From Peptostreptococcus porci (lineage in GTDB: Bacteria > Bacillota > Clostridia > Peptostreptococcales > Peptostreptococcaceae), in NCBI RefSeq assembly GCF_009695815.1, contig NZ_VUNE01000001.1, positions 434,001-498,000 on the forward strand: a DNA stretch of 64,000 nucleotides. Direction: 5' to 3'. Each line of letters begins with the position of its first letter. Positions within the stretch are counted from its first letter, which is position 1. Positions 53,788 through 64,000 of this stretch are shown here, in pieces. The translations under genes and the position numbers were made by a program. The notes under the pieces were generated by a model, which was given only the letters and a program-made list of their open reading frames with translations, was not told where the DNA came from and ran no database searches.

Positions 53788-54918
<1,131 letters not shown>

Positions 54919-55014
54919 AATTTGCAACAAAATTCGAATTAGTTTATAATGTTAGTGAAAATATAAATTATTTTGAGCATAATATTTTTTAAATTTGAAT
55001 AGGGAGGAAATGCC

Positions 55015-55332
55015 ATGCCAAAGAATCAAGTGATAATGAGTATAGGCTTGTGGATTGTAATCTTTGTAGCGTTCTATTTCATATTGATTAGACCTCAAAA
55101 GAAAAAAGACCAAAAGCTTAGAGAAATGAGAGATTCAATCGAAAAAGGAGATACTGTAGTAACAATCGGAGGAATTATCGCAAAGGTTACCAGAGTAGAA
55201 GAAGACAAGATAATATTGGAGCTTGGACCTAATAGAACAAAGGTACCATTTGAAAAATGGGCTATAGGAAGGGTTGTAGAAAAAGTTTCCAAGGATGAAG
55301 TCGTAGAAGTGGAAGAAAAAATCGAAGAATAA
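55015..55332 (+). CDS. yajC: Preprotein translocase subunit YajC
   Basis: 105 aa. One N-terminal transmembrane helix (IGLWIVIFVAFYFILIRPQ) with the family motif RPQKKKDQK, then a small domain with GDTVVTIGGIIAKVTRVEEDKI. Associates with SecDF-YidC. secD and secF, usually downstream, do not follow here: the next gene is the SCIFF precursor from its own promoter. GGGAGG precedes ATG. Confidence 0.95.
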   Translation: MPKNQVIMSIGLWIVIFVAFYFILIRPQKKKDQKLREMRDSIEKGDTVVTIGGIIAKVTRVEEDKIILELGPNRTKVPFEKWAIGRVVEKVSKDEVVEVEEKIEE

Positions 55333-55354
55333 ATCAATTAATATGACAAAACTG

Positions 55355-55383
55355 TTACAAAATATTACAATATGTGGTATAAT
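55355..55383 (+). promoter_or_regulatory. Promoter of the SCIFF gene
   Basis: TTACAA (55355-55360), a 17-base spacer and TATAAT (55378-55383). This gives the SCIFF gene its own short transcript independent of yajC. Confidence 0.75.
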
Positions 55384-55416
55384 GAAACATATATTATTTT
55401 TAATAGGGGGATTACG

Positions 55417-55560
55417 ATGGAAAAGAAGCATGTAAAAACTCTTTCTAAGGCTACTTTAAAGGAAAGTGCAGCTAAGGGTGGATGTGGTGAATGTCAAACT
55501 TCATGTCAGTCTGCTTGTAAAACTTCTTGTACAGTTGCTAACCAAGAGTGTGAAAGATAG
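55417..55560 (+). CDS. scfA: SCIFF peptide precursor (six-cysteine ribosomal peptide)
   Basis: 47 aa. MEKKHVKTLSKATLKESAAK leads into GGCGECQTSCQSACKTSCTV and ANQECER, with Cys at 23, 26, 30, 34, 38 and 45: the SCIFF family (six cysteines in about forty-five residues). In known systems a radical-SAM enzyme (ScfB/CteB type) encoded next door makes Cys-to-Thr thioether links. No such gene is in this window. Start ATG 55417 after AGGGGG. Flanked by its own promoter and terminator, so it is a monocistronic unit. The function of SCIFF peptides remains unknown. Confidence 0.95.
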   Translation: MEKKHVKTLSKATLKESAAKGGCGECQTSCQSACKTSCTVANQECER

Positions 55561-55572
55561 TATTCTTTACTT

Positions 55573-55602
55573 AAACAGCCTTTTTTGGCTGTTTATTTTT
55601 TT
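55573..55602 (+). terminator. Terminator after the SCIFF gene
   Basis: AAACAGCC (55573-55580) pairs with GGCTGTTT (55587-55594), then ATTTTTTT. It isolates the SCIFF transcript from the CWB2 gene. Confidence 0.92.
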
Positions 55603-55635
55603 AAAAATAATATTTTATTATTGGAGGTGCAGTTT

Positions 55636-56595
55636 ATGAAATTAAAAAATAAAGCGATAGCGATGATGTTGGCATTGACGACTATAGTGTTTACTGGAGT
55701 ATCATCAAATGCCATAACAATTCAACAAATACAGCAGATTAAAGGCTCAGATAGATATTCGACGGCTAGTTCAATTGCGGGTGAAATGGGAAGCTACGAT
55801 TCAGTTATTCTTGTCAATGCTGACAACAACAAATTGTCAGATGGTTTGAGTGCGAGTGGATTATCAGGTGTTTTAAAAGCTCCGATATTGTTAGTGAGCA
55901 AAAATAGCATACCAAATGAAACTCAATTAAGGCTTGAAATAGCAAAAAACATCTATATTATAGGCTCTGAAAACTCTATCAGTAGTTCATTGGAGCAGAA
56001 GCTAAAGGACTCTGAAAAGGGGGGATTTTCTGTTACTAGAATTGGTGGAAGAGATAGATTTGAAACGAGTAGTAATGTTGCCAAAATGATTTTGAGCATT
56101 AAGGGAAGTGTTGGAAAAGCATTTGTGGCCAATGGATATAAAGGAGATGCAGATGCGATGAGTATTTCTTCTGTTGCTGCAAGAGACGGTGAGCCGGTAT
56201 TGCTTACTGATGGCACAAGAATTGATGCGACTACTTCTAAGATTTTGGAATCAACTAGTAAAGTCTATGCAATAGGTGGTACCAACTCAATTTCAACAAG
56301 CCTAATTAGAAGCATAGGTGCAAATAGATTGAGCGGAAACGATAGATTTGAAACAAACGCACAGGTTATCAATGCTTTTTACTCTGAAAAACCACAGCAG
56401 TATTTTTTGAGTGATGGATATAAATTGGTTGATGCGTTGACTGGAGGTCCTTTGGCAGGTAAGTCTTTGAGTCCAATCGTTTTGGTTAATGGATATAGCA
56501 ATAAGTCGGTATTGAGTGGTGCACAGAGAATGATATCTTTGGGTGGCATAAGTACATCTGTACTTAACGCATGTGTTGCGGCTGCGAATAAGTAA
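55636..56595 (+). CDS. Secreted protein with three CWB2 cell-wall-binding repeats
   Basis: 319 aa. Signal peptide (MKLKNKAIAMMLALTTIVFT, cleaved near SSNA), then three CWB2-type modules, each marked by a G-(S/N/R)-D-R-(Y/F)-x-T motif: KGSDRYSTAS, GGRDRFETSS and SGNDRFETNA, and by a YIIGSENSIS/YAIGGTNSIS/ISLGGISTS ending. Trimeric CWB2 sets anchor proteins to anionic wall polymers in Clostridioides. The protein has nothing but the anchor modules, so the partner activity is not here. ATG 55636 follows GGAGGTG. Confidence 0.9.
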   Translation: MKLKNKAIAMMLALTTIVFTGVSSNAITIQQIQQIKGSDRYSTASSIAGEMGSYDSVILVNADNNKLSDGLSASGLSGVLKAPILLVSKNSIPNETQLRLEIAKNIYIIGSENSISSSLEQKLKDSEKGGFSVTRIGGRDRFETSSNVAKMILSIKGSVGKAFVANGYKGDADAMSISSVAARDGEPVLLTDGTRIDATTSKILESTSKVYAIGGTNSISTSLIRSIGANRLSGNDRFETNAQVINAFYSEKPQQYFLSDGYKLVDALTGGPLAGKSLSPIVLVNGYSNKSVLSGAQRMISLGGISTSVLNACVAAANK

Positions 56596-56613
56596 TATTG
56601 ACAAGTAAGAAAA

Positions 56614-58602
56614 ATGAAGAAAAATAACAAATTTGAAAACTATGAATTGATTTCCATATTGGGCTTATCTATTATACTTTTCATAGTTATTGAAATAATT
56701 TCGAGAAAGAGCGTTTTGGATTTTCTTGATTTCGTCATAGAGAGTCCTCTTAACGCTGTAGTCAACATATTTGTGTTGCTGAGTATTTTTGGTGTGACTG
56801 TGTTCATCAAAAGAAAGAGATTTTCATATTTTATAATTTCGTTTATTTTGATATCTCTTTCAGTTGTAAGCTCTTTTCTAATGAGTATTAGAGGAATGCC
56901 TCTTTCTCCATACGATTTTATGAGCTACAAGGAGGCCGCAAATGTAGCGAATGCCTTTTTTGATATCAAGGTTGAGATTATGGCTGTAGCACTGATAGCT
57001 CTATTTTTGCTTATTTGTGTTTGGATATTCAGACAGGATAAAAAGAGTATTTGGATAACTGGAGTTAGGAATATATTTATATACGTTTCTGTTGTGCTGT
57101 TGTCGATCATCGTCATTCCACAGCTCAAGACCAATAAGATAATAAATGTCATTGCGTGGGATGTTGGATTATCATTTAAAAACAATGGTTTTGCTTATTC
57201 ATTTGCAGATGAGACATTGTCCATCATAAGAACAAAGCCAGAAGGATACAGTGAAGAAGCTATCAAAGCTATTAGAGCAGAGGCAGAAAGACTCGCCAAA
57301 GAAAGTAAAAAAAATGAGTCTTCTTCAAAAGTAACTCCTAATATAATTATGGTACAGTTGGAGTCATTTATGGATCCGACCAGAATAGAGGGAATTACGT
57401 TTGACAAAGATCCTATGCCGAATATGAGGAAATTGATGAAAAAATACACATCTGGTTTTATGAATGTTCCAGTTATAGGTGGAGGAACGGCAAGAACTGA
57501 GTATGAGGTGTTGAGTGGAAGTAATTTTGATTTCCTTCAGCAGGGTGAGATTCCATACCATACTTTTCTATCTGAAAAGCCATCGCTTTCTATTGCGAGT
57601 AATCTGGATAGTATTGGGTACAAAACTGTGGCAATACACAATTTTGAAAAAAATTTTTACAATAGAGCTGGTGGATTAGAGCATTTGGGCTTTGGTAAAT
57701 TTATTCCTTTAGAAGTGATGACAAATATCGAATATACACCCGTAGGATGGCCAAAAGACAATGGCTTGACAAAATATATTACTCAAGAAATTGAAAATAA
57801 GGACGGAAAGCCAAGTTTTATTTTTACCGTTTCTACTGAGGGACATGGTAGATATCCTACCAAGGATATGCAAAATAGTAATTACGATATCAGCATAGCA
57901 AAATCAACCTTGCCAAAATCAGATCAAAATCAAATTCTTTTCTATGCAAATTTGGTATATAATATGGATAAATTTGTGGGAGATTTGGTAAAGGAAATAA
58001 ATAAATTAAAAAAGCCGACGGTTCTTGTATTGTATGGTGATCATTTGCCAGCCTTGAATGTTATTACTGAAAAGAAATCGAATATAGATAAATTCGCATC
58101 TATTTTCACCATAGTGAATAATTTCGGTGTTCCGAAAAAGTCAGTTCCAAGTGATTTTCAAGCATATCAGTTGAGTACCTTGACACTTGATACGGCAGGA
58201 CAAAATCTAGGTCCTATGAATCTAATTCATAAATATTTGAAAAATGACAAAGAATATATGAAAAAATTGGAGATGGTCCAATATGATATTCTATTTGGAA
58301 AACAATATTTTTTAAAGTCAGATGAATTGCCGAAAAATACGGTAATGAAAATAGGAAATGATGAAATGAAGCTAGACAATGTTGAAAATGTAGGTGGAGA
58401 ATTTTATCTTAAAGGCTCTGGATTTAACAGACAGGTAACCGTATTTTTAGACGGAAAAAAGGTTGATTCCGATTACGAAAATGAAACTACTATCAAGCTT
58501 TATGACAACTTCTACACTGGAGAGAAGGAGATAATGCTGAGACTGATAGATAAGGAAGGAAACGTAATTCAGGAGTCCAACAAGTTTAAATATAATTTTT
58601 AG
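56614..58602 (+). CDS. Lipoteichoic-acid-synthase-like sulfatase-fold membrane enzyme
   Basis: 662 aa. Five N-terminal transmembrane helices (about 12-165), then an extracytoplasmic sulfatase-fold domain with MVQLESFMD (metal Glu), GGGTARTEYEVLSG (Thr nucleophile), FTVSTEGHGRYP and LYGDHLPAL. This is the LtaS/alkaline phosphatase layout that adds glycerol phosphate to membrane or wall glycans. It differs from B. subtilis LtaS in a C-terminal extension of about 100 residues. The start has only a weak ribosome site; it lies 18 bases after the CWB2 gene. Confidence 0.88.
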   Translation: MKKNNKFENYELISILGLSIILFIVIEIISRKSVLDFLDFVIESPLNAVVNIFVLLSIFGVTVFIKRKRFSYFIISFILISLSVVSSFLMSIRGMPLSPYDFMSYKEAANVANAFFDIKVEIMAVALIALFLLICVWIFRQDKKSIWITGVRNIFIYVSVVLLSIIVIPQLKTNKIINVIAWDVGLSFKNNGFAYSFADETLSIIRTKPEGYSEEAIKAIRAEAERLAKESKKNESSSKVTPNIIMVQLESFMDPTRIEGITFDKDPMPNMRKLMKKYTSGFMNVPVIGGGTARTEYEVLSGSNFDFLQQGEIPYHTFLSEKPSLSIASNLDSIGYKTVAIHNFEKNFYNRAGGLEHLGFGKFIPLEVMTNIEYTPVGWPKDNGLTKYITQEIENKDGKPSFIFTVSTEGHGRYPTKDMQNSNYDISIAKSTLPKSDQNQILFYANLVYNMDKFVGDLVKEINKLKKPTVLVLYGDHLPALNVITEKKSNIDKFASIFTIVNNFGVPKKSVPSDFQAYQLSTLTLDTAGQNLGPMNLIHKYLKNDKEYMKKLEMVQYDILFGKQYFLKSDELPKNTVMKIGNDEMKLDNVENVGGEFYLKGSGFNRQVTVFLDGKKVDSDYENETTIKLYDNFYTGEKEIMLRLIDKEGNVIQESNKFKYNF

Positions 58603-58607
58603 TACAT

Positions 58608-58656
58608 ACCAAACAAAAAAATAAAGTAAATTTATTGCTTTATTTTTTTGTTTGGT
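58608..58656 (+). terminator. Perfect 19-bp terminator
   Basis: ACCAAACAAAAAAATAAAG (58608-58626) pairs completely with 58638-58656 around an 11-base loop, with a T run inside the 3' arm. Confidence 0.85.
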
Positions 58657-58674
58657 TGATTTTTCGGAGGAAAA

Positions 58675-60051
58675 ATGGACAGTTTTAAGAAACGCAAAAA
58701 ATCATTTTTATATAAATATAAACCTGGACAAATAATGGTATTGGGCTTTGCAGGGGTGATTTTGGCAGGAACACTTATTTTGATGCTTCCAATATCTTCA
58801 AATAGTGGAGAGATAACTAATTTTTTTGACTGTCTTTTTACTGCAACGTCTTCTGTGTGTGTTACTGGGCTGGTTGTTCTTGATACCAGTCTGCATTGGA
58901 GTGTTTTCGGCAAGACGGTTATTATTTTACTAATACAGATTGGTGGAATGGGATTTATGTCTATTGGAGCGTTGATTTCATTCATTTTTGGAACCAAAAT
59001 AAATATTAGAAAAAGAATTTTGCTTCAAGAATCTTTAAATCAAAATCAACTTTCAGGTGTTGTTAGATTGATTAGACGAGTGCTTATATTTACTGTCAGC
59101 ATTGAGTTTGTCGGAGCTTTACTGCTTTCAATTGTATTTATACCGCAGTTTGGATTGATAGATGGGATTGGATATAGCATTTTTCATTCTATATCGGCAT
59201 TTTGTAATGCTGGGTTTGACTTGATGGGAAGGCATAGTGGTGAGTTTTCGTCTATGCTGATGTTTTATAATAATTCCATTGTCGTTTTAACTTTATCGGT
59301 ACTTGTAATTTTGGGCGGTATTGGTTTTCCTGTATTGATTTGCATAAAATACAACAAGCTTAAGTTTAAAAAATATGATTTAAGTTCTAAATTGGCAATA
59401 ATTACGACTATTATATTGCTGATAATAGGTACAATGGTCATATTTTGTGGCGAGTTTTCAAATGCGAGTAGCATCGGTACAATGAGCATTGTAGACAAAT
59501 TAAAGGTTGCATTCTTTCAATCAATGACTGCTAGAACAGCAGGATTTGCAACGATTGACTTCAATAGCTTTAGAGCTAATACTCTTTTTGTTTTAATTGT
59601 ATTGATGTTTATTGGAGCTTCTCCTGCATCTACAGGAGGGGGGATTAAAACTACAACGCTTGCTGTAATATTTATATCTGTGATATCTTTCTTAAGGAAT
59701 GAGAACGATATAAATGTATTTAAGAGAAGGGTCGATGTATTGACGTTTAGAAAGGCACTAGGAGTGTTTTTCATTGCTATAGCAATATTTGTAGTTGGTA
59801 CATACGTTTTGACTATAACTCAGAATGAAAAATTTGGATTGATGCAAAGTGCATTTGAGGTATCATCATCACTGGCTACAGTTGGATTATCGATGGCTGG
59901 ATCTTCAAACCTAAACCTGTTTGGCAAGGTTTTTATATCGCTGCTGATGTTTTTGGGGAGAGTAGGATCTTTGACTGTATTCACGTATTTTATGAATGAT
60001 ACTGTTCAAAATAAAATTAGATATCCCGAAGAAAAAATATTGATTGGATAA
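58675..60051 (+). CDS. ktrB: K+ uptake channel subunit KtrB/TrkH
   Basis: 458 aa, eight or more helices arranged in four M1-P-M2 repeats with selectivity-filter glycines: SSVCVTGLVV, SAFCNAGFDL, ARTAGFATID and SSLATVGLSMAG. The N-terminus has PGQIMVLGFAGVILAGT. The channel needs the KtrA/TrkA nucleotide-gated ring, encoded 26 bases downstream. GGAGG precedes ATG. Confidence 0.96.
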   Translation: MDSFKKRKKSFLYKYKPGQIMVLGFAGVILAGTLILMLPISSNSGEITNFFDCLFTATSSVCVTGLVVLDTSLHWSVFGKTVIILLIQIGGMGFMSIGALISFIFGTKINIRKRILLQESLNQNQLSGVVRLIRRVLIFTVSIEFVGALLLSIVFIPQFGLIDGIGYSIFHSISAFCNAGFDLMGRHSGEFSSMLMFYNNSIVVLTLSVLVILGGIGFPVLICIKYNKLKFKKYDLSSKLAIITTIILLIIGTMVIFCGEFSNASSIGTMSIVDKLKVAFFQSMTARTAGFATIDFNSFRANTLFVLIVLMFIGASPASTGGGIKTTTLAVIFISVISFLRNENDINVFKRRVDVLTFRKALGVFFIAIAIFVVGTYVLTITQNEKFGLMQSAFEVSSSLATVGLSMAGSSNLNLFGKVFISLLMFLGRVGSLTVFTYFMNDTVQNKIRYPEEKILIG

Positions 60052-60077
60052 ATTTAAATTAGGTTAAGAGGTAAGAT

Positions 60078-60746
60078 ATGAAACAATATATTGTAATTGG
60101 GGCTGGAAGATTTGGTAAGTCTTTAGCGATGACTTTGTACGAATCAGGTCAAGATGTCTTGGTTGTTGATAATAATAAAGAGGTTGTGCAAAATTTATCT
60201 GAGGTTTTGGACAATGTCGTAGTTGCTGACGCCTCAGATGAATATACGATTAAAAAAATAGGACTTAGTAATTTTGATGTTGCGATTATTGCGATTGGAA
60301 CAAATCTTAGAGCATCGATAATGGCTACACTTTTGGCAAAGGAATCTGGAATACCGATGATTATCAGCAAAGCTACAGATAATCTTCAAGCCGAAGTTTT
60401 AAGAAAAATTGGTGCGAATAGAGTTGTATTTCCAGAACATGATATGGGAGTAAAAGTGGCAAAATCCCTGACTATTAACAATCTGGTGGATTATATGGAA
60501 TTGGACAGCAAGCATTCCATATTTGAGATGAAGGTTCCTCACAGTTGGATTGGAAAATCCTTGATAGACTTGGATGTGAGAGGAAAGTATTCATTGACTG
60601 TAATCGGTGTCAAAAACAAGGATATTTTTGATGTTCCTGCAAATCCTATTCAGGTTTTTGGAGAAGATGATATCGTTGTAGTTGCAGGTAAAAAGGATGT
60701 CATTGAAAAATTGGTGATTAAAGAGTCTAATATGAGTAGTTTCTAA
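60078..60746 (+). CDS. ktrA: K+ uptake regulatory subunit KtrA/TrkA
   Basis: 222 aa. RCK N-domain with the Rossmann GAGRFGKSLAMTL and D-V-V-D end, then a C-domain (about 140-222; FEMKVPHSWIGKSLIDLDVR) that binds nucleotides or c-di-AMP in homologues. Forms the octameric ring under KtrB. AAGAGGT precedes ATG. Confidence 0.96.
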   Translation: MKQYIVIGAGRFGKSLAMTLYESGQDVLVVDNNKEVVQNLSEVLDNVVVADASDEYTIKKIGLSNFDVAIIAIGTNLRASIMATLLAKESGIPMIISKATDNLQAEVLRKIGANRVVFPEHDMGVKVAKSLTINNLVDYMELDSKHSIFEMKVPHSWIGKSLIDLDVRGKYSLTVIGVKNKDIFDVPANPIQVFGEDDIVVVAGKKDVIEKLVIKESNMSSF

Positions 60747-60757
60747 AGGAGAATTTT

Positions 60758-61540
60758 ATGAAGACTATCAAGAGCAAGGACAACGAAAAAATTAAGCTAG
60801 TAAAATCTTTACATAAGGCGAAGTACAGAAATAGGGAGAAAAAGTTTTTTTCTGAGGGATTGAGGTCTGTAGAATTGGCGATTGAGCATAATGCAGATAT
60901 CGTATTTTCAATAATCAGTGAGAGCTTTTTTCAGGATGTCAAAAATAAGGCGTTTATAGATACTTTGGATAGTAGGACAAATGTGTTTATAGTGAGTGAT
61001 TCGCTGTTTGACTCGATTTGCACGACTGAAAATACACAGGGAATACTGGCTGTTTTTGATATTGATGATATGTCGGTGAATATCTTTAATGGAGAAATTC
61101 ATAAAAAAATAATTCTTTTGGATAGAGTGCAAGATCCTGGAAATGTTGGGACAATAATCAGAACTGCTGATGCCGCTGGATTTGATTTGGTTATCCTGAC
61201 CAAAGGTTGCGTTGATATATTCAACCCAAAAGTTGTCAGATCTACAATGGGATCTCTATTTTACATGGACGTAATAGTAGATGACGAAAATGATATACTA
61301 AAAAAATTGAGAGATTCAAATGTTCAGATAGTGTCCAGTTCTCTTGATGCCAATAGCTATTTTGATGAGGTTTCATATGATGAGTCTGTGGCATTGGTAG
61401 TTGGTAATGAGGCAAATGGTGTAAATCAGTTTTGGTATGATAATTCGGATATTCTCGTTAAGATTCCCATGTTTGGAAAAGCAGAATCTCTAAATGTGGC
61501 TATATCCTCTGCCATATTGATGTATAAGATTGTTAGGTGA
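60758..61540 (+). CDS. TrmH/SpoU family RNA 2'-O-methyltransferase
   Basis: 260 aa SPOUT methyltransferase with an N-terminal substrate-binding domain (KFFSEGLRSVELAIEH) and the C-terminal knot: LLDRVQDPGNVGTIIRTADA (motif 1), VRSTMGSLFYMD, VALVVGNEANG (motif 2) and IPMFGKAESLNVAISSAILMY (motif 3). A TrmH-like rRNA or tRNA methylase; the target is undetermined. It follows ktrA by 11 bases and is the last + strand gene before the convergent cassette. Confidence 0.92.
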   Translation: MKTIKSKDNEKIKLVKSLHKAKYRNREKKFFSEGLRSVELAIEHNADIVFSIISESFFQDVKNKAFIDTLDSRTNVFIVSDSLFDSICTTENTQGILAVFDIDDMSVNIFNGEIHKKIILLDRVQDPGNVGTIIRTADAAGFDLVILTKGCVDIFNPKVVRSTMGSLFYMDVIVDDENDILKKLRDSNVQIVSSSLDANSYFDEVSYDESVALVVGNEANGVNQFWYDNSDILVKIPMFGKAESLNVAISSAILMYKIVR

Positions 61541-61553
61541 GTAATATTGATAT

Positions 61554-61675
61554 AAAGCTCGCATTATCCGTTTTATTTTGTTTATCGTGATTTAGAAGTA
61601 TATTGTTCTAGACTATTACTAATTTAGACTATACTGATTTGAATCACGATGGTTTATTGATTATGCGAGCTTTTT
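61554..61675. terminator. Large nested hairpin between convergent units
   Basis: Outer arms AAAGCTCGCAT (61554-61564) and ATGCGAGCTTT (61663-61673) are perfect; a middle stem pairs ATCGTGATT (from about 61584) with AATCACGAT (ending 61650); an inner AGTATA/TATACT is also present. T tracts lie on the right, A on the left, so it can terminate both strands, but it is far larger than the usual terminator. Confidence 0.65.
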
Positions 61676-61684
61676 GTAATATTA

Positions 61685-61990
61685 TCATATATTACCCCTA
61701 TTGTTTTTTATCGAATATCTATGACCCACATATTCATACATTTTGACAGACTCATTTTCATTATGTGGGTGTTCTTTAAATATAAAATAATGGTCTAACC
61801 CGTCTTTGGAGTTGCCACCATTTAATCTAAAATAACTTTTATTAGTAGAAACCATTAATTTGAGTATATCATCTGTAATAAAGGTTAATGGAATGTTAAA
61901 ATCAGCAAATTTGTAGAAATCATCCTCAAATTTTTTGTAGTTGCTACTAAAGTAGTCAAACTGAATACTATTTTTTTCTAATTTATCCAT
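61685..61990 (-). CDS. Unknown small protein in the SOS-type cassette
   Basis: 101 aa, MDKLEKNSIQFDYFSSNYKKF..., no transmembrane helix, Tyr/Phe-rich and acidic. I do not recognise it. GGAGG lies 8 bases before the ATG inside the previous gene's end (overlap 8 bases), so it is co-translated with the YolD-like and polymerase genes. Possible role: accessory to the translesion polymerase, by position only. Confidence 0.6.
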   Translation of the reverse strand: MDKLEKNSIQFDYFSSNYKKFEDDFYKFADFNIPLTFITDDILKLMVSTNKSYFRLNGGNSKDGLDHYFIFKEHPHNENESVKMYEYVGHRYSIKNNRGNI

Positions 61991-62336
61991 TGTCTTCCTC
62001 CGCAATATCTAATCTAAGTATTTGAGAAAACAAAAAACTTCGTGTTTTATCATCTGTCCTAAAGTATATTTTTTCGCAGTCTATATCACAAATAGTACCT
62101 ATGTAAGGATCTTTTCTATCGGACGTGAACAGTAAAATAGTTACACCGTACTGGTACATTTGGTATATTATTATCATCTTTTCTTCTGGGTCCATTTCCT
62201 CAGAAAAGCTGGATTCATTTTTCAATTTAGTTAGAGCAGTCGTATGTTCGGATATAAAGAAGCTCATCCATTTTGCCATACCTCTATCAACGTATTCTCT
62301 TGCAACCTTATAAGGTAGGTAAGATCTATCTATCAT
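61983..62336 (-). CDS. YolD-like protein
   Basis: 117 aa. The first part EYVDRGMAKWMSFFISEHTTAL matches the YolD pattern (DRGMxKWxxFxxxEH), given here as DRGMAKWMSFFISEH, and the rest is an Sm-like beta domain (TICDIDCEKIYFRTDDKTRSF). YolD-family proteins accompany UmuC/UvrX-type Y-family polymerases in Firmicutes and may act as UmuD-like partners. Its ATG overlaps the polymerase stop (ATGA), so the start is certain. Confidence 0.75.
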   Translation of the reverse strand: MIDRSYLPYKVAREYVDRGMAKWMSFFISEHTTALTKLKNESSFSEEMDPEEKMIIIYQMYQYGVTILLFTSDRKDPYIGTICDIDCEKIYFRTDDKTRSFLFSQILRLDIAEEDNG

Positions 62337-63745
62337 TTTGTACCATCCATTCCACCGCAATGGCCACCTATCAATTTGCTCCTTTGACGGACTCTGGATC
62401 CTTCCATCAAGGATGTACCTTTTTGTATTGCTAGGTAACCAAACTTGTCTCTTATACCGTCTATTGCATTTTCCAGATTTTCTTTTTTTTGCATTTCAAT
62501 TGGATCGTCAAAAAGCGAAAAAACCTGATATTCTCTTTTTTGAAGCTGTTCATACCTCACTCCAATTCTTCTGACAGAGCCACCATTAAACTTGCATCTA
62601 AACAAATCTATAACGTGTTTTATCAAATCTTCTGTGTGATGAGTTGGCTTAATTTTTTTGCTCGCATTTATAGATTTATGATCGTCGTTATGGCTAAATC
62701 CGATATAGATTGATACTACACAGGCATCTTTATCTATTCTTCTCAGGCGTATGGCAACTTGTTCTGCAATCTCTTTTAGAACTATTTCTATTTCGGATTG
62801 CTTTGTATAATTTCTAGGAAGAACCTGAGAATTACCCAATCCCTTTGATTGTGGCTTATAGGGGACTGTGACCTTGCTCTCATCTACACCATTTGCATGA
62901 AACCATAGCTGGACACCCATCACACCAAATTCCTTTTTAAGGTATTCTGGGTTAAAGTTTGCAAGCTCTTTTATCGAGTATATTCCGATTTTGTTTAGTC
63001 TTTTTGCTGTCCTACTTCCGATTCCCCAAAAATCTACGAGATTATCGATTCCCCAAACCTTTGTCTCAATATCTTCGTATGACCAATTTGCCCTCATACT
63101 TTTTGTTTTTTTTGCCTCGTTGTCGAGGGCTAGTTTTGCTAATAGTGGATTGGCGTTACTCATTCCTATTGCAGAATAGATTCCTATTTCTCTCCAAATA
63201 TCATTTTGAATCCTTGAACATACTATATCTAATTTGTCTTTTCTACTGATGGTGCTGTCTCCAACAAAATAGTTTATGGATGTTGTGAGGTCTATGAATG
63301 CCTCGTCGATTGAATATGGGCAAATTTCGCTTGGGGAGGCAAAGTTTTGGAATATTTTTTGAATTTTTATGTTTTCCTGTATATACAGCGACATACGAGG
63401 TGGTACTATAAAGGTTTTTTCTGCCCATTGTTCTACAAATTCGATGTATTTTTTTGTCACATTAATATTTTGTCTGGATGCATTTTCAAAGCTGAATTTG
63501 CGTGTGTTTATATCAAATGGCAAATCTCTGGCTCTACCTACATTGCTTCTTCCGAATACTTCTTTGAATATTGGTGAGCTAGCTAATATTAGACCATTGT
63601 GGTTGTCGAAATTACTCATTACGCACAGAGATGTGTTTAGAGGGTGAAGTCCTCTTTGAACACACTCAACACTAGCATAAAAAGATTTCATATCTACAAA
63701 AGCGATATCTGAACGAGGTTCTCTGGAATAGTCAATAATTGTCAT
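62333..63745 (-). CDS. Y-family DNA polymerase (UmuC/UvrX type)
   Basis: 470 aa translesion polymerase. IAFVDMKSFYASVECVQ (metal Asp), SIDEAFIDLT (catalytic acidic pair), helix-hairpin-helix GIGSRTAKRLNKIGIYSIKELA and the little-finger domain. The C-terminal QVFSLFDDP resembles a sliding-clamp binding motif. The UmuC-like N-terminus and S24 partner upstream point to an SOS role rather than housekeeping DinB. It lies 4 bases after the S24 gene and overlaps the YolD-like gene. Confidence 0.93.
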   Translation of the reverse strand: MTIIDYSREPRSDIAFVDMKSFYASVECVQRGLHPLNTSLCVMSNFDNHNGLILASSPIFKEVFGRSNVGRARDLPFDINTRKFSFENASRQNINVTKKYIEFVEQWAEKTFIVPPRMSLYIQENIKIQKIFQNFASPSEICPYSIDEAFIDLTTSINYFVGDSTISRKDKLDIVCSRIQNDIWREIGIYSAIGMSNANPLLAKLALDNEAKKTKSMRANWSYEDIETKVWGIDNLVDFWGIGSRTAKRLNKIGIYSIKELANFNPEYLKKEFGVMGVQLWFHANGVDESKVTVPYKPQSKGLGNSQVLPRNYTKQSEIEIVLKEIAEQVAIRLRRIDKDACVVSIYIGFSHNDDHKSINASKKIKPTHHTEDLIKHVIDLFRCKFNGGSVRRIGVRYEQLQKREYQVFSLFDDPIEMQKKENLENAIDGIRDKFGYLAIQKGTSLMEGSRVRQRSKLIGGHCGGMDGTK

Positions 63746-63749
63746 GATA

Positions 63750-64000
63750 CTATTTCTCCATAGGTCTGAAGCTATCCACGACCAAGCCTACTACTCTGAC
63801 TTCATCTATTGAGGCTAGAATGTCGTCATATTTTTTATTTATTGAAACCAGTCTTATTTTTTCGCTTTCCAGATAAACCTTTTTGATGTAGGTATTTTCT
63901 CTGTACACGACAGCATAGACCTGTCCATCAAAATCAAATCCAGTATTTTTTATTAGGGCGACGTCGCCATCTCTATATTTTGGCTCCATAGAGTCACCCT
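63750..64000 (-). CDS. S24 family peptidase / repressor, C-terminal part (cut by the window edge)
   Basis: On the minus strand the frame continues past the internal Met to the window end, where it reads GDSMEPKYRDGDVALI: the S24 nucleophile serine motif (GDSM). The downstream Lys in NTYIKKVYLES is the general base, and the end resembles UmuD or LexA-like repressors. The protein starts to the right of the window, probably with an HTH. With the polymerase it forms a UmuDC-like pair, self-cleaved on RecA activation by analogy. Confidence 0.85.
   Translation of the reverse strand, partial: GDSMEPKYRDGDVALIKNTGFDFDGQVYAVVYRENTYIKKVYLESEKIRLVSINKKYDDILASIDEVRVVGLVVDSFRPMEK

Follow-up and report, generated by a model that had tools for sequence, protein, structure and literature searches.

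Precursor and maturase genes of a SCIFF (ranthipeptide) system lie far apart in Peptostreptococcus porci and related genera

The six-cysteine peptide gene scfA of Peptostreptococcus porci belongs to a system of a known kind whose split layout is unusual and conserved, and the claim of the initial annotation that it is an orphan is refuted. With a probability of about 90 %, it forms an ordinary SCIFF (ranthipeptide) system together with a maturase gene that has become widely separated from it. The gene was found in a stretch of 64,000 nucleotides (hereafter the window; G000:C1:434001-498000, G000 denoting the genome and g1 its genus, Peptostreptococcus), and the gene for the maturase (scfB) resides further downstream on the same contig and strand, about 55.5 kb past the window end. 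The relevant features are as follows (positions of the window, except for scfB).

55015..55332, + strand: yajC, last gene of the upstream half of a conserved gene block (TIGR00739, 82.9 bits; order in relatives)
55354..55383, + strand: promoter-like site of scfA, GTTACA-18-TATAAT with extended -10 (TGG TATAAT), from a motif scan
55417..55560, + strand: scfA, 47-aa SCIFF precursor (six-cysteine ranthipeptide), ATG to TAG (TIGR03973)
55572..55602, + strand: predicted intrinsic terminator of scfA, 9-bp stem, 6-base loop and T7, from a hairpin scan
55606..64000, no strand: left end of the stretch separating scfA from scfB, continuing past the window to scfB (63.9 kb in total)
55636..56595, + strand: CWB2 cell-wall protein gene, first gene of the separating stretch (NF033435, 113.9 bits, below the cut-off of 650)
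G000:C1:553483-554856, + strand: scfB ORF (TIGR03974, alignment to CteB)

The product of scfA (MEKKHVKTLSKATLKESAAKGGCGECQTSCQSACKTSCTVANQECER, translated from the window ORF) carries cysteines at positions 23, 26, 30, 34, 38 and 45, i.e. six cysteines with conserved spacing in about 45 residues, and is a member of the family TIGR03973 ("six-cysteine ranthipeptide SCIFF"; 82.8 bits, cut-off 50). The initial annotation had described the peptide correctly, and its placement between yajC and a CWB2 protein gene was confirmed by the family matches, the latter gene containing a PF04122 match (G000:C1:490038-490301). The promoter and terminator that had been attributed to the gene were recovered as a promoter-like site, one of nine in 54900-55700 (3.5 in shuffled sequences), and as a hairpin (55572-55595) followed by T7, the sole terminator-like hairpin in this interval (mean of 0.2 in shuffles). 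Likewise, the radical-SAM motif CxxxCxxC was absent from the kept non-overlapping window ORFs of at least 60 aa, as had been noted before.

The conclusion that the peptide is without its maturase, however, holds within the window but is incorrect for the genome. A profile search of the P. porci genome, as had been proposed, revealed the SCIFF maturase ScfB at G000:C1:553492-554832 (+ strand; TIGR03974, 721.5 bits, cut-off 425; 721.9 bits for the protein), so that the reading without a maturase is rejected, and the relocation considered as one option in the initial annotation holds. The protein aligns with CteB (PDB 5wgg) over residues 1-451 (E 1e-184), its CNLKCKYC motif and C-terminal cysteines being in register with those of CteB, and it matches the SPASM family TIGR04085 with 77.4 bits, thus combining CxxxCxxC and SPASM as radical-SAM/SPASM maturases do. 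The cognate maturase of a SCIFF system is accordingly present in the genome, at a distance of 63,937 bases between the two matches rather than within 500 bp of the precursor. Named records matching the maturase are from Peptostreptococcus sp. D1 (98 % identity), followed by P. canis, P. anaerobius, P. russellii, P. faecalis and Peptostreptococcus sp. MV1 (82-85 %).

Comparison of gene order in relatives showed one conserved block in which scfA ends the upstream half and scfB opens the downstream half. According to tblastn searches of fetched stretches with the block proteins, the upstream half of this block comprises ruvA-ruvB-queA-tgt-yajC-(small membrane protein gene)-scfA, and the downstream half scfB-(gamma-carbonic-anhydrase-like)-(secD-secF)-aarF-recJ-apt-relA-dtd-mbl-hemZ; individual genes of the block are absent from some genera. 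The names tgt and yajC derive from family searches (TIGR), while ruvA, ruvB, queA, the genes from aarF to hemZ, the gamma-carbonic anhydrase (gCA), secD and secF are what we take these genes to be from the look of their sequences. The tblastn table holds one best match per gene, and the position it gives for CWB2 need not be that of the nearest CWB2 gene. In P. porci, the first half-block ends at scfA and the second starts at scfB 64 kb on. Among 41 loci with both genes in one fetched stretch, the gap is below 1 kb in 32 and 3-7 kb in nine. Overall, 68 of the 71 family genomes encode scfA and 68 encode scfB, the same three genomes (G031, G047 and G048, of which G047 is 99 % complete) being devoid of both; linked or not, the two genes are retained or lost jointly.

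The loci of scfA were read in 56 of the 68 family genomes possessing the gene, the 12 left out being split ones. In all 56, TGnTATAAT occurs in the 110 bases preceding scfA, at a distance of 27-55 bases from its start (dinucleotide shuffles, 47/2800), including G040, in which another site scores best as promoter. A hairpin with T-rich tail was found within 90 bases downstream of the gene in 52 of the 56 loci (shuffles, 8/280); this search yielded no match in G020, G021, G024 and G056, two of which are split g9 genomes. These predicted signals indicate that scfA forms its own transcription unit throughout the family and that an isolated transcript is its normal state. The view that such a transcript marks an orphan is therefore rejected, since relatives with an adjacent scfB have the promoter and mostly also the terminator. 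Upstream of scfB in P. porci, TGG TATAAT is located 34 bases before the aligned start together with a poor -35 (TAGTAA), a finding made without shuffle control; the strict scan listed no + strand promoter before scfB, and the gene upstream of it is encoded on the opposite strand.

The presumed status of scfA as a transcription unit of its own is also a likely reason why the junction between scfA and scfB accepts insertions. Inserts of more than 1 kb occur at this junction in eight genera, the four split ones described below included, and are of four kinds; among them are transporter-like genes in g6, two genes in g15, and a MurJ-like gene with others in g14 and g18. No probability is attached to this count, as the insertions had been noticed before counting. 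Elsewhere in the block, gaps of more than 1 kb were observed between ruvB and queA in six genera (1.6-1.9 kb, possibly due to a single old gene), between tgt and yajC (g8), between yajC and the next gene (g18), between aarF and recJ (one g1 genome) and between gCA and recJ (g6). In g14 and g18 (L094, L111 and L115), genes for a MurJ-like flippase and a 169-aa protein are positioned between scfA and scfB; the large separating stretch of g1, g4 and g9 likewise contains a MurJ-like gene.

Large separations are found in four genera, namely Peptostreptococcus (g1), g4 (probably Clostridioides, judged in part from its SlpA equivalog), g9 and Peptacetobacter (g11). Where both genes share a contig, they are 60.7-83.7 kb apart in g1 (7/9 genomes; on different contigs in G038 and G044), 66.1-95.8 kb in g4 (5/8) and 63.3-67.1 kb in g9 (3/5), and in all 15 of these cases scfB is located downstream on the same strand. 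In one of the three g11 genomes the genes are 1.3 Mb apart on opposite strands of a single contig, and in the other two they reside on different contigs. An erroneous join in a single assembly does not explain the layout, as seven of nine genus genomes show it on one contig and on the same strand.

A tree calculated from nine concatenated block proteins unites g1, g4, g9 and g11 in one group with a support of 1.0, Acidaminobacter being outside; this tree includes five of the eight g4 genomes and is effectively unrooted, since Finegoldia and Lagierella, like G016, were dropped for too few columns. Moreover, reciprocal best matches link the separating stretch of P. porci to those of G010 (g4) and G021 (g9), and their order is largely preserved. 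Common to the three are genes for a SecA-type ATPase, an amidase-CWB2 protein, a sugar transferase, glycosyltransferases, a polysaccharide synthase, a MurJ-like protein and an LCP protein, of which MurJ and some glycosyltransferases are in a different order in g1. A single event is the simplest reading: the two genes would have been separated one time only, in a common ancestor of the four genera, a reading for which the partial collinearity in g1, g4 and g9 carries the argument. Alternatively, the genes could have been separated several times independently in g1, g4, g9 and g11, at a junction that accepts insertions. The inserts in g6, g14, g15 and g18 and the occurrence of separated genes in unrelated families of the class fit such a course; in view of the fully supported group and of the reciprocal matches between the g1, g4 and g9 stretches, we regard it as unlikely.

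The separating stretch varies between genera. In P. porci and G040 it includes a further block of trk, rlmB and pheST-like genes without reciprocal match in G010 and G021. Except for TrkH, which derives from family search, these names are presumed ones; the designations UDP-glucose dehydrogenase, rlmB, pheST, recG, transporter, AbgT, peptidase and Y-family polymerase, wherever applied, are likewise our assumptions. On the minus strand of the window (61685-64000), presumed Y-family-polymerase-like and helix-turn-helix-like genes have no reciprocal match in the G040 stretch and may represent a later insertion inside the separating stretch.

This stretch resembles the S-layer and anionic-polymer (AP) loci of Clostridioides difficile in harbouring CWB2, SecA-type ATPase, polymer and LCP genes. 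A passage in PMC4973711 places the C. difficile AP locus directly downstream of the SlpA, SecA2 and Cwp84 locus. The SecA gene of G010 directly follows a gene for a SlpA equivalog (722.6 bits, cut-off 650). In contrast to C. difficile, the CWB2 gene beside scfA in P. porci reaches only the sub-threshold score listed above, and no SlpA equivalog was seen there, the SlpA model having been run on this gene and on the SecA gene; furthermore, the SecA genes of P. porci and G010 pass the SecA models (NCBIfam) and remain below the cut-offs of the SecA2 models.

If scfA headed a wall locus, SCIFF might be co-regulated with, or act on, S-layer or wall assembly. A CWB2 gene indeed follows scfA at 69-143 bases in all five g1 loci with both genes and at 76-698 bases in all three g11 loci, and in G010 a gene whose SlpA match stays below the threshold (298 bits) starts about 0.3 kb after scfA. 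However, the promoter-like site of scfA and the terminator ahead of the CWB2 gene set the peptide gene apart, two other genes intervene in G021 before the best CWB2 match about 1.9 kb on, and SCIFF is kept in G030 (g10, Paraclostridium) and G014 (g6), where no CWB2 match (E <= 1e-8) was found among the matches listed. Nor are wall genes confined to split genomes, since linked genomes also carry CWB2: G002 has at least eight matches at 1545-1595 kb (among the matches listed), a region distant from its scfA at 517 kb, and G051 has a CWB2 gene 2.4 kb before ruvA. A functional layout thus appears very improbable. The envelope context hinted at in the initial annotation and there termed only positional stands as regards position, a wall locus lying between scfA and scfB in four genera; as an indication of envelope function it is weak.

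The ordinary SCIFF system with separated genes agrees with the conservation of the peptide. All 56 family peptides read have six cysteines with the spacing 3-4-4-4-7 and threonines two and five residues after the fourth cysteine (Cys4+2 and Cys4+5), and at the level of sequence the SCIFF core is unchanged by the separation. In a wider sample, Thr is present at Cys4+2 in 46 of 46 peptides, and Cys4+5 is Gly in seven of 28 genomes with adjacent maturase. The closest known systems are CteA-CteB of Clostridium thermocellum and Tte1186a-Tte1186, which belong to the same precursor (TIGR03973) and maturase (TIGR03974) families and have the same Thr positions; part of PMC8326336 reports acceptor threonines for CteA/Tte1186a at +2 and +5 after the fourth cysteine. 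ScfB would act on ScfA in trans and, by analogy, join Cys34 to Thr36 or Thr39, so that ScfA has the acceptor positions for the non-alpha-carbon thioether expected of a ranthipeptide; of these, Thr36 is favoured as the putative acceptor because Thr at +2 is invariant and +5 can be Gly. Regulation, a role reported for SCIFFs of clostridia, would probably be the function of the product, which is then not an envelope component: according to a passage reviewing Chen et al. 2020 (PMC8102284), disruption of precursor and maturase in C. beijerinckii lowered expression of sporulation genes and raised that of agr. That ScfA is unmodified or modified by another enzyme, with ScfB serving something else, is scarcely credible, for despite one more SPASM radical-SAM protein in the genome (G000:C5:56196, 62.9 bits to TIGR04085) and another family that keeps SCIFF with no ScfB above cut-off, making a maturase-free role possible in principle, ScfB is intact and ranks as an equivalog (TIGR03974, CteB), presence or absence of scfA and scfB agrees in 71 of 71 family genomes, and both threonines are kept throughout the family peptides read.

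Orphan maturases of the type NF040492 ("not_ScfB") are related to the P. porci enzyme, which as a radical-SAM/SPASM protein scores 610 bits against this model. Unlike them, it remains below the cut-off of 855, exceeds the ScfB cut-off and has a SCIFF gene in its genome. The ScfA-ScfB system is usually adjacent, unlike the pair in P. porci; a passage in PMC5300114 uses a 500-bp neighbourhood and states that every ScfA should have an ScfB. No split SCIFF loci were described in the literature searched (titles, abstract starts and some passages), which is no proof of their absence from print.

The initial annotation had assumed the maturase to adjoin the precursor in known SCIFF loci, which applies to most and not to all genomes of the class. 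In a sample of 195 genomes, the precursor was detected in 170 and the maturase in 168, the best 150 of each being listed; distances were counted for 145 of the 150 listed rows (five from the genus itself left out), with both genes in 135 genomes. Among the matches listed, the genes are adjacent in 123 of these (14-350 bases between model ends, median 103) and not adjacent in 12, i.e. six genomes of f19 (G113, G136, G157, G175, G192 and G208), three of f39 (G119, G162 and G180), two of f25 (G092 and G142) and one of f35 (G126). The last is probably a contig break, with scfA 252 bases from the contig end; the other 11 have at least 3.6 kb of contig after scfA. As non-adjacent pairs occur in unrelated families, separation arose in several lineages of Clostridia, and adjacency is usual, not defining. 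In the draft genome G086 (C189; L144 and L146), the maturase is read in two pieces (model positions 1-220 and 217-449), and although no ScfB passes the strict threshold there, this genome is therefore not clearly devoid of the enzyme. Additional ScfB-related proteins below the cut-off of 425 (217-248 bits) were seen in G054 (C5, three places) and G013 (C18).

The other family that keeps SCIFF is f33, in which the precursor scores above cut-off in six of 32 genomes (completeness at least 90 %) and ScfB in none of the 32.

L187-L192: SCIFF carriers of f33, in the genomes G285, G147, G282, G244, G276 and G284

CGECQTSCQSACKTSC is retained in each of the six cores, the residue at Cys4+5 being Gly or Ala in G282 and G244. 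Radical-SAM matches to the ScfB model (E <= 1e-20) are present in ten of the 32 genomes with up to 147.6 bits, including G285 (125 bits), and four of the six carriers have one SPASM match each, G244 and G282 having none. No neighbour gene is common to the six SCIFF loci, among the neighbours seen. The f33 leaders, the region to which a maturase would bind, are less alike and have a mean pairwise identity of 0.377, compared with 0.531 in random sixes from 27 maturase-bearing genomes (28 adjacent peptides without G127, which has a shifted register); none of 20000 draws was as low (pooled, 0.006), this being a comparison of one family with 27 genomes of other families. The recG-like gene (a presumed name) beside SCIFF in G276 is 60-68 % identical to those of nine genomes of its own genus, 54-58 % to those of three other f33 genera and at most 48 % to those of nine genomes outside, and the contig is probably no binning error, as judged by sequence for G276 alone of the six. 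The f33 peptides are thus candidates for maturase-free SCIFF, a state that the initial annotation had envisaged for the peptide of the window. A second, maturase-independent function of the SCIFF core is rather doubtful; if it were true, the separation of scfA and scfB would be a step letting the peptide be made independently of the maturase. f33 makes a maturase-free role testable and is a lead worth following.

For the Peptostreptococcaceae, the present findings correct a false orphan: genome mining based on neighbourhood would call such SCIFF genes orphans or miss them. The split may have been tolerated because scfA already was a separate transcription unit, and this would account for the retention of both genes despite the whole wall locus between them.
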